This document shows positions 18,621 through 59,039 of a DNA stretch of 64,000 nucleotides, piece after piece. Origin of the DNA: Parabacteroides faecalis. Its GTDB lineage: Bacteria; Bacteroidota; Bacteroidia; Bacteroidales; Tannerellaceae. The position numbers were made by a program, and so were the translations under genes. The stretch lies in contig NZ_JAKZMM010000002.1 in the NCBI RefSeq assembly GCF_022809355.1, positions 62,001 through 126,000 on the forward strand, written 5' to 3'. Within the stretch, counting starts at the first letter, position 1, and the number at the start of each line of letters is the position of its first letter. Under the pieces are notes generated by a model that had not been told where the DNA came from, ran no database searches, and saw nothing but the letters and a program-made list of their open reading frames with translations.

Positions 18621-19039
18621 GCAGGAGCACATTTGATGCACCCAATTACCCGTTGCAAGGTCGCGTGAGCACATTTGATGCACCAAATCACCCGTTGCAA
18701 GGGTGCAAGGGTACATTTGATGTACCAAATCACTTGTTGCGAGGGTACAGGAGCAGATTGAAGATCGACAAACACCCCTTGCGGAGTTGCGTGGGCAGAT
18801 TGAAGACCGACAAACACCCCTTGCAGGGTCGCATGGACAAATTGATGACCGACAAATACCCGTGCAAGGTCGCATGGGCAGATTGATGACCGACAAACAC
18901 CCCTTGCGAGGCCGTATGGGCAGATTGATGACCGACAAATACCCGTTGCAAGGTCGCATGGGCAGATTGATGACCGACAAACACCCCTTGCGAGGCCGCA
19001 TGGGCAGATTGATGACCGACAAACACCTCCTGCAAGTCT
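18621..19039. repeat. Ten-unit 42-bp tandem array with two dyads per unit
   Basis: Ten units can be read: nine of 42 bp and one of 41 bp (unit 6, 18831-18871, lacking one base). Units 1-3 share ACATTTGATGCACCAAATC or a close variant. Units 4-10 share CAGATTGAWGAYCGACAAA. Units 7 and 9 (18872-18913 and 18956-18997) are identical, and units 6-7 versus 8-9 show an 84-bp dimer duplication. Each unit carries a dyad near its middle (perfect in unit 3: GGTACAT, TTG, ATGTACC) and a second about 21 bp on (CC-TTGCAA-GG or CCTTGC-GAGG). With no stop codon in the unit, long false ORFs appear in several frames on both strands. It fills the gap between the HTH gene and the DUF4837 gene. Confidence 0.93.
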
Positions 19040-19199
19040 GCAAGAGAGATTGCCTGCGTATCTTTTTCCTCCCTTATCTGTCCGCATTCCCCCCGTATTT
19101 TATCTTCCTTATCCTTATAAACCACTGAAAATCAATAAATAGAAAAGCATTCCATTTGTCCGCCCATAAAATAAAGGAATCTGATGAAGCCGCATTACC

Positions 19200-28744: not shown

Positions 28745-28806
28745 GTTCGCCCATGGCGAACATATAATCACCCACTCCGAACGTATATTCGCCCTGGGCG
28801 AATATA
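28745..28806. repeat. Three-unit 21-22-bp palindromic array upstream of the phosphatase gene
   Basis: Within the 337-bp gap between the phosphatase and priA, three consecutive units read GTTCGCCCATGGCGAAC plus ATATA, then ATCACCCACTCCGAACG plus TATA, then TTCGCCCTGGGCGAA plus TATA. The outer two are perfect palindromes: a 7-bp stem around CAT (28745-28761) and an 11-bp stem around T (28784-28806). The middle unit has lost its symmetry. The two palindrome centres are 42 bp apart, about four helical turns. The rest of the gap holds only the phosphatase -7 box and no gene. Confidence 0.85.
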
Positions 28807-40752: not shown

Positions 40753-40936
40753 CGTATTTTGTTTTTTAGATTAATGATTTTTTTCACTTCCAACGATAAG
40801 AAAAAAGGCCGACAAGTACATCAGGTCTTAACGTGTAAAACATAGTATTCGCTTTCATACAATGGCTAAATTGTGAGATTTTATCAACTGATTATAAATT
40901 CGCATAGCCTAGAGAAAAATCATACTAAGCCTTACA

Positions 40937-40966
40937 CAAAAGTAGCTTTTTTTAAATAAAAACAAA
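40937..40966 (-). promoter_or_regulatory. Promoter upstream of the propeller relic and its intact paralogue
   Basis: On the minus strand TTTG (40963-40966) is followed after 18 bp by TACTTTTG (40937-40944), a near-consensus Bacteroidetes promoter. It would give a leader of about 180 nt before the relic's ATG at 40752. Confidence 0.55.
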
Positions 40967-41065
40967 TGTTTTTTGAGAAAATCATTCCTCATTCTTTCTT
41001 CTTTTCCACTTTTTATTATACTTTTATCGGCGTGAGCGATCTTTGTTTTGCTTCAAAGTTTCCGT

Positions 41066-41270
41066 GTAAGCTGCACGAAGTCGGTGTAGGGCTACAGAAG
41101 TCCCATGCAGGCTGCACGGCGTTTTTGTAGCCCTACAAAAGCTTCTTGCAGGCTGCACGGCGTTTCCGTAGGCCTACAAAAGTCTCTTGCAAGCTGCATG
41201 GCGTTTCCGTAGGCCTACGACGGGTTCTTGCAGGCTACACGGGGTTTTTGTAGGGCTACGACAGATTCAT
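41066..41270. repeat. Five-unit 41-bp tandem array with paired dyads, upstream of DUF6261
   Basis: Five units of exactly 41 bp start at 41066, 41107, 41148, 41189 and 41230, followed by a partial sixth (GCAAGCCTGCACG from 41271). Each unit has two related halves of 20-21 bp: one with a TGCA-N3-TGCA dyad (TGCAGGCTGCA in units 2 and 3) and one with GTAG-NN-CTAC. In the latter the arms GTAG and CTAC are invariant while the two central bases vary (GG, CC, GC, GC, GG). The array is far more GC-rich than the 280 bp before it. No ORF uses it. It ends 77 bp before the DUF6261 ATG, in a 595-bp gap that otherwise holds only the promoter at 40937-40966. Confidence 0.93.
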
Positions 41271-41347
41271 GCAAGCCTGCACGAAAATTTTGAAGCACGG
41301 CAAAAGTCTATCACACAGTTTTTTAGTTGTTAATTTTTAAAACGCCT

Positions 41348-42130
41348 ATGAATATGGAAAAACAAGTTGACACCATCGCCCTTAGCCGGTTTTCCAATTA
41401 CGCACATTACAATTATATGGATGTCGTGTATAAAAACCTGAGTTCATTGCTTATTTTGGGTGAGAAACTGGCTACGGAACTGCCGATTTTCGAAGAAAAG
41501 CTGGACAATGAAAACGAAGTGCTGGTACAATCGAGGAAAAACGACCTGACCGAAGAGATCGAGGTGGGCGACGACCAACGCGACAGCGGGTTGAGCGGAT
41601 ATGCCCAAGTGCTGAAAGGATTCTTGTACCTGAAAAGCGGCGAGCAATATGAAGCGGCCAAAAAGCTGGACAAGCATTTGTCTGATTTCAATTTGTCGCC
41701 CCGCATGTCGCTCATCAAGCAGACGGGCGCGATGAAGAATCTCATTGAAGATCTGGAGACGACTTATACCTCGCAGGTCACCTCTTTGGGATTGACACCG
41801 TTCGTCACGATGATGAAAGAGGGCAACACAACGGTCGACACCAACCTGCAAGCCCGTGATGCCCGAAGTGCCGGAAAGATGAAGGCCGCCGTACTGACAG
41901 CCCGCAGCGAAACGGACGAAATCTACAACAAGATCATCAAGAAGATCAACGCTCTGGCAATTGTAGATGAAGAGAATGCCGACGAATACGGACAACTAAT
42001 CGATGAACTGAACGCCCAGATCAAACACTACAAGGAACAGGAATTGACCCCGAAAACGAAGAATACAGACAGCAGTTCTACCTCTGGTAGCGGTACCAGT
42101 TTCAAACCGTTCTATCCGGAATACGAATAA
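41348..42130 (+). CDS. DUF6261-family protein
   Basis: 260 residues from ATG 41348 (MNMEKQVDTIALSRFSNYAH); a TTG at 41327 is in frame but unlikely. The N-terminal pattern (TIALSRFSNYAHYNYMDVVY), the middle helices (GFLYLKSGEQYEAAKKLDKH) and the size fit the Bacteroidales family DUF6261. It is mostly alpha-helical, with no signal or membrane segment, and ends in a Ser/Thr/Gly-rich tail. Function unknown. It follows the 41-bp array directly and has no recognisable TAnnTTTG box, so the array may lie in its control region. A strong terminator follows. Confidence 0.8.
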   Translation: MNMEKQVDTIALSRFSNYAHYNYMDVVYKNLSSLLILGEKLATELPIFEEKLDNENEVLVQSRKNDLTEEIEVGDDQRDSGLSGYAQVLKGFLYLKSGEQYEAAKKLDKHLSDFNLSPRMSLIKQTGAMKNLIEDLETTYTSQVTSLGLTPFVTMMKEGNTTVDTNLQARDARSAGKMKAAVLTARSETDEIYNKIIKKINALAIVDEENADEYGQLIDELNAQIKHYKEQELTPKTKNTDSSSTSGSGTSFKPFYPEYE

Positions 42131-58951: not shown

Positions 58952-59039
58952 CGTTTCACCCGGGTGATACGATCGTTCCACCTTTGTGATACGATCGTTC
59001 CACCCAGGTGAAACGATCATTCCACAGGGGTGAAACGAT
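58952..59039. repeat. Four-unit 22-bp palindromic array between galM and hemW
   Basis: Four contiguous 22-bp units start at 58952, 58974, 58996 and 59018. Each has arms near CGTTCCACC and GGTGAAACG followed by AT, with a variable two- to four-base core. Unit 3 has a single mismatch in nine arm pairs, and that mismatch becomes a U-G pair in minus-strand RNA. Units 1 and 2 keep one or two mismatches. The array ends 44 bp before the hemW -7 box. With the 32-bp repeats it fills most of the 508-bp galM-hemW gap; no gene lies there. Confidence 0.9.

Follow-up and report, generated by a model that had tools for sequence, protein, structure and literature searches.

The stretch of Parabacteroides faecalis DNA analyzed here (64 kb, hereafter the window) carries a DUF6261 gene preceded by a tandem repeat array (Table 1). 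The array comprises 11 dyad sites, alternately of two types and spaced at 20.5 bp, within a repeating unit of 41 bp. TRF reports a 41-bp array at 41085-41283 with ~80% match, and the motif positions give an extent (~41065-41282) that slightly exceeds the 41066-41270 of an earlier sequence-only reading. The A-type dyad, GTAGnnCTAC, occurs five times in the window, always inside the array, against 0.84 occurrences expected from base composition. Its copies are spaced by exactly 41 bp, and their cores vary between units (GG, CC, GC, GC, and GG) just as that reading had described. The B-type dyad, TGYA-N3/4-TRCA, starts at 41065, 41106, 41147, 41188, 41229, and 41270, again at a spacing of 41 bp. 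Its half-unit is related to that of the A-type dyad, and the dyad centers lie 20.5 bp apart, in agreement with the related half-units and 20-21-bp sub-period seen earlier. The description of a GC-rich block in AT-rich DNA is likewise correct, with a GC content of 53% for the array vs 28-34% for its flanks.

Table 1. Features of the DUF6261 locus and a related dispersed array (window coordinates)
Feature	Position	Strand	Basis
Tandem array, 5 A-type + 6 B-type dyads	41065..41282	no strand	TRF and motif positions
A-type dyad GTAGnnCTAC	41086-41095, 41127-41136, 41168-41177, 41209-41218, 41250-41259	no strand	motif positions
B-type dyad TGYA-N3/4-TRCA, copy 1	41065..41075	no strand	motif positions
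DUF6261 (PF19775) gene, 260 aa, from ATG	41348..42130	+	Pfam, 135 bits
Tentative -7 boxes TACTTTTA (41019) and GATCTTTG (41038)	41019..41045	+	layout of relatives with promoter upstream of array
Dispersed 42-bp array without DUF6261	18621..19042	no strand	TRF, genome search, array comparison

The sequence-only reading had also remarked on the lack of a TAnnTTTG box, and indeed none is present at 40901-41360, though TACTTTTA and GATCTTTG, just upstream of the array, are each one base off this consensus. By analogy with relatives, these two boxes are tentatively taken as the promoter of the window gene; they are weak and have no clear -33 box.

The association of gene and array is a rule of the family. 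All 14 DUF6261 genes in this genome have an upstream TRF array with a period of 41-42 bp, the unit of which differs from gene to gene; L009 and L011, whose proteins are 91% identical, have a common unit. DUF6261 is present in 20 of 198 Bacteroidales genomes, and the arrays recur there. With an array defined as a self-match of 65% or more across 80 bp within 600 bp, a threshold that shuffled sequences never reached, a period of 40-43 bp or a multiple is found in 102 of 136 DUF6261 upstream regions, compared with 14 of 335 control genes (outside the family and with 200 bp or more of intergenic DNA). When all loci across Bacteroidota are pooled, 160 of 200 DUF6261 genes pass the threshold, 159 of them with a period of 40-43 bp or a multiple, while only 5 of 193 downstream flanks pass at any period. 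Fifteen of the 40 genes that have no strong array still peak at a lag of 41-42 bp or a multiple. The pairing also occurs in Parabacteroides sp. (ZJ-118) and in one P. distasonis strain. In another order of the same class, a 42-bp array accompanies one DUF6261 member, and a weak peak at lag 42 is seen for three further members; in another class, one of two members peaks at lag 41, below the threshold. HU-like/DUF4469 genes were considered as second owners of such arrays and are ruled out, with a period-40-43 array at threshold in none of 31. The earlier expectation that arrays would be commoner upstream of DUF6261 than of other genes is thus borne out in many Bacteroidota families. The pairing of DUF6261 with private dyad arrays extends across Bacteroidota and is strongest in Bacteroidales. 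A search of the open-access literature, with subscription journals outside its scope, found no publication on this pairing, and the data point to an undescribed kind of gene and DNA-site pair. A hit to a "phage" record (MT839608) was set aside; this record is a 4.2-kb fragment, unverified and without annotation, and has a weak lag-83 array of its own.

The period of the arrays is fixed, and their sequence is free. Among the 159 arrays, the period is 41 bp in 69, 42 bp in 79, 43 bp in 8, and 40 bp in 3, i.e., 41 or 42 bp in 148. Below a protein identity of ~50-60%, the arrays of two paralogues are no more alike than shuffled DNA, and period and dyad symmetry are kept where the units are unrelated in sequence. 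In 26% of units the best dyad forms 8 or more of 10 pairs, vs 3.5% of shuffled units. Where two strong dyads are present, 24 of 43 center pairs lie 20.5-21.5 bp apart; the sites are therefore really spaced by two helical turns, and one A and one B dyad together make up a unit, as they do in the window. Double changes that preserve pairing account for 21 of 30 in paired columns vs 22 of 91 in slid columns, a comparison biased towards dyads because the phases had been picked by pairing. Mismatches in the arms are G-T in 87 cases and A-C in 70, with no convincing bias to the G-U pairs of one strand.

Arrays also change in concert, as seen in L299 and L300, which lie in one genome, differ by a gene dS of 0.01, and have nearly identical promoters. 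In every aligned unit, one array has CAG as its dyad core and the other has AAT, and unit positions outside the core vary freely. An array can therefore switch en bloc, much faster than its gene. The array of L261 retains the AAT core with different arms (TCCGAC/GTCGGA).

DUF6261 genes behave as solitary cassettes. Their number ranges from 0 to 52 per genome among 39 Parabacteroides genomes. The four classes of neighbor orientation are evenly filled for 164 DUF6261 genes (45, 43, 40, and 36) compared with other genes (94, 41, 35, and 10), so DUF6261 is a solitary gene that sits in either orientation; this randomness rules out the array as a mark of regulated operons. Positions are not conserved: susC/susD, the gene downstream of L002, and the L008 flank occur in related species without DUF6261 at that place, and these orthologous flanks are 70-83% identical, which is too low for reading insertion junctions. 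The L009 and L011 copies align from ~600 bp upstream to 4 bp beyond the stop codon. The dN/dS ratio is 0.04-0.36 in 16 of 17 close pairs (L299/L300, with a dS of 0.01 and a ratio of 0.55, is uninformative), and the proteins are therefore in use and under purifying selection. The sequence-only reading had proposed that the array regulates the gene or that the two form one mobile or signaling unit. Joint duplication, random neighbor orientation, and array similarity that tracks protein similarity all support a single unit of gene and array; the support does not extend to regulation of the gene or to mobility.

The position of the array relative to the promoter is variable. Strict promoters (TTG-N18-22-TAnnTTTG) lie between array and gene in 15 cases (1.0 expected), where most -7 boxes end 25-48 bp short of the ATG. 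In another 15 cases (1.5 expected) they precede the array, often in genes where it abuts the start codon. This is a ten- to fifteen-fold excess over chance on both sides, and most DUF6261 genes have no recognizable strict promoter. In 29 genes, no more than 45 bp separate the end of the array from the start codon, and 12 of these genes have a strict promoter upstream of the array. Because strict promoters occur on both sides, the array is predicted to be sometimes part of a leader RNA and sometimes untranscribed. The idea that the array takes the place of the promoter is consequently not a general rule. The sequence-only reading had itself named, as evidence against its proposal, a transcript start beyond the array at a normal promoter; this is indicated in 15 other genes, while 15 more have the promoter upstream of the array.

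A separate feature upstream of DUF6261 at L009, L010, L011, and L012 is a tetranucleotide run (AGCC/AGCA/CAAG type) that leads into a strong GC hairpin with a T-run. Runs of the same type with a hairpin occur at L311 upstream of an HU-like/DUF4469 gene, i.e., in two unrelated multicopy families, and may represent a leader ORF with an attenuator.

The window DUF6261 protein has a pI of 4.9 and is predicted to be all-helical with a disordered C-terminal tail. A confident AlphaFold model (pLDDT 91) shows all-helical bundles and the same disordered tail, and no DNA-binding fold is recognized in it. The 14 proteins of this genome have pI values of 4.6-5.2 and net charges of -8 to -17, an acidity that argues against simple DNA binding by the protein body. 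In sequence searches, PF19775 is the only Pfam family above cut-off, and NCBIfam, PADLOC, PHROGs, and PDB sequences yield no credible match; Foldseek against the PDB and viral models returns nothing at E ≤ 0.001. The best VIA-align rows, the helical sensors McpS and TorS (Z 8-10), were rejected as relatives since such scores are within reach of common helical bundles. No nuclease or recombinase motif is found in DUF6261. Many copies in genomes G212 and G223 carry an Ig-like C-terminal domain near DUF4469 (22.5 bits, cut-off 22.6). The DUF4469 domain elsewhere sits behind HU-like domains, and its likeness here is a hint, from sequence, of a possible nucleoid role. Five loci of these two genomes (L193, L252, L254, L261, and L293) have divergent N-terminal parts and closely similar Ig-like domains (~80-90% DNA identity over ~380 bp), which suggests domain exchange or gene conversion.

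When the genome is searched with the DUF6261 arrays, relatives turn up at other sites, apart from the gene, about one to two per paralogue. Six dispersed arrays were compared with the DUF6261 arrays of their own genome and with 145 from elsewhere; four of them have a far better match to one array of their own genome than to any of the others. These cognate pairs are (i) the dispersed array of the window (Table 1) with that of L012 (G000:C30), (ii) G000:C10:82838 with the window's own DUF6261 array, (iii) C6:99338 with L009/L011, and (iv) C1:140003 with L013. Of 10 dispersed sites inspected, 4 lie between convergent genes, 5 between co-directional genes, and 1 between divergent genes, a placement more like that of REP elements than of operators.

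Several further repeats were noted. Arrays of 41-42 bp or multiples that lack DUF6261 are spaced about 20 kb apart in G195 (L044-L062); several of them lie between convergent genes, and most match none of the DUF6261 arrays sampled there. Two dispersed 41-42-bp arrays (L069 8170-8360 and L074 16991-17193) have no matching DUF6261 paralogue in this genome and are perhaps remnants of lost genes. The stretch G000:C56:6777-6890 (L351 4778-4891) is 99% identical over 114 bp to the L004 array with no DUF6261 alongside, and reflects either very recent copying of the array or the assembly. A second dispersed class, independent of DUF6261, comprises 3-4 copies of a 21-22-bp palindromic unit, with ~30 intergenic occurrences in 0.86 Mb (window 58952-59039 and 28746-28806; L068 17670, L072 7605, L080 18235, and others) and several sequence families, e.g., TTCACGGCGTGAACTAAGTAA, TTCGCCCACGGCGAATATATA, and TGTCGAAAAGCTTTACCACATA. 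P. gingivalis reportedly has direct repeats of 41 and 22 bp.

The reading tentatively preferred here, with a probability somewhat below one half, is that the array is a DNA-level protein-binding platform owned by the adjoining gene, the two forming one inherited cassette with a private site for each paralogue. Dyad sites two helical turns apart would all face the same side of the helix, each A+B pair taking up 41-42 bp, and an oligomerizing protein could bind the row cooperatively. Since each paralogue would keep its own site sequence, the cassettes of one genome would not interfere with one another. Such a platform would most likely serve to control the promoter of its own gene, whichever side of the array that promoter is on, and the same protein would also occupy the small number of cognate arrays at other sites of the genome. 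The protein that binds the array presumably is or includes DUF6261, which perhaps reads the array itself; in view of the modeled acidic helical bundles and their lack of a recognized DNA-binding fold, however, the reader may be another protein. Against a platform stand the frequent placement of dispersed arrays between convergent genes, unlike operators, the variable cores of the window array, and the 40 of 200 genes that have no strong array. A stronger and rather improbable form of the proposal holds that each protein reads only its own array, that cores switch in all units at once after duplication, and that dozens of cassettes thereby coexist without interference.

The alternatives differ from the platform in what the array is for. 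An RNA element, in which transcribed tandem hairpins control DUF6261 as a leader or serve as a separate small RNA, is a distinctly unlikely one. The array should form the 5′ leader in the 12 genes noted above, and that of the window folds strongly (z about -6). Yet both strands fold alike (z -6.05 and -6.36), the promoter lies between array and gene in 15 genes, G-U wobble is only slightly favored in the mismatch counts given above, and an Rfam search returns nothing above the gathering score, only sub-threshold chance matches to microRNAs. With promoters on either side and no RNA strand favored, a DNA-level role of the array is the likeliest. A neutral minisatellite, i.e., slippage-prone DNA that expands by chance in upstream regions and has no function, is less probable still and already disfavored. 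Copy number and units do vary, and tandem arrays may homogenize by unequal exchange without selection. Chance expansion, however, is at odds with the tie to one gene family, the absence of arrays beside the comparable multicopy HU-like/DUF4469 genes, a 41-42-bp period locked across unrelated sequences, half-period dyads, and presence in another order of the class.

The third alternative is a REP-like selfish pair, in which DUF6261, perhaps with host functions, drives amplification or dispersal of its cognate arrays, so that the gene-side array would be the master copy and the dispersed arrays its offspring. Its probability is low, though above that of an RNA element. A copy number that swings so widely within one genus, the lack of conserved position, random neighbor orientation, homogenized units, and cognate dispersed arrays in intergenic space (4 of 10 between convergent genes) all fit such a pair. 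It is opposed by the lack of a nuclease or recombinase motif in the protein and of a Y1_Tnp/RAYT in the genome, by the small number of dispersed relatives per paralogue, and by the G195 arrays, most of which have no DUF6261 match among those sampled.

The pairing concerns an uncharacterized family, present in up to 52 copies in a 3.3-Mb gut Bacteroidota genome, that is tied to a private, period-locked dyad array. The array offers the first handle on DUF6261 function, as a DNA probe for a putative binder, and the pairing accounts for many unannotated repeats in these genomes. It also raises the clean question of how sequence specificity can diverge at constant geometry. Self-specifying cassettes, if real, would be a bacterial counterpart of fast-evolving centromere or PRDM9-type protein-site pairs.

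One known system for comparison is the REPtron, a pairing of REP/REPIN elements with a RAYT tyrosine transposase (PMC3733652, PMC3116915). Like REP/REPIN elements, the DUF6261 arrays are intergenic palindromes that go with a family of solitary genes and have relatives at other sites of the genome, and GTAG happens to occur in the window unit. They differ in their regular tandem layout, fixed 41-42-bp period, and few dispersed copies. A REP/RAYT identity is rejected: the transposase family PF01797 (Y1_Tnp, HUH) is unmatched in the whole genome and matched in five control genomes; the GTAG/CGTC end tag is absent from the units of L002, L006, L007, L009, and L012, and GTAG is missing in most other DUF6261 arrays. 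A CRISPR array is ruled out, as the whole 41-42-bp unit repeats head-to-tail without unique spacers, and no curated RNA family of the structured leader or riboswitch kind is matched beyond the chance microRNA hits. The HU-like/DUF4469 proteins of Bacteroidales (PF14734) are likewise multicopy in these genomes, and a DUF4469-like domain occurs in some G212 and G223 DUF6261 proteins, but their genes lack period-40-43 arrays. Multi-site operators of autoregulated repressors place dyads beside a promoter, a location that strict promoters on either side suggest for some DUF6261 arrays, and like these arrays they are co-inherited with the gene. They have one to three sites, in contrast to the typical 3-9 units of DUF6261 arrays, which may lie far upstream, wholly change in sequence between paralogues at constant spacing, and accompany a protein with no recognized DNA-binding domain. 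Plasmid iteron and centromere arrays (rep iterons, parC-type) are tandem direct repeats at whole helical turns beside the gene of the presumed binder, and their private sequences would prevent cross-talk; the 148 DUF6261 arrays with a period of 41 or 42 bp are spaced in this manner. DUF6261 arrays differ in being chromosomal, with up to 52 unlinked copies and no replication or partition gene in the cassette. Iteron- or operator-like mechanics nevertheless appear to provide the best analogy for them.
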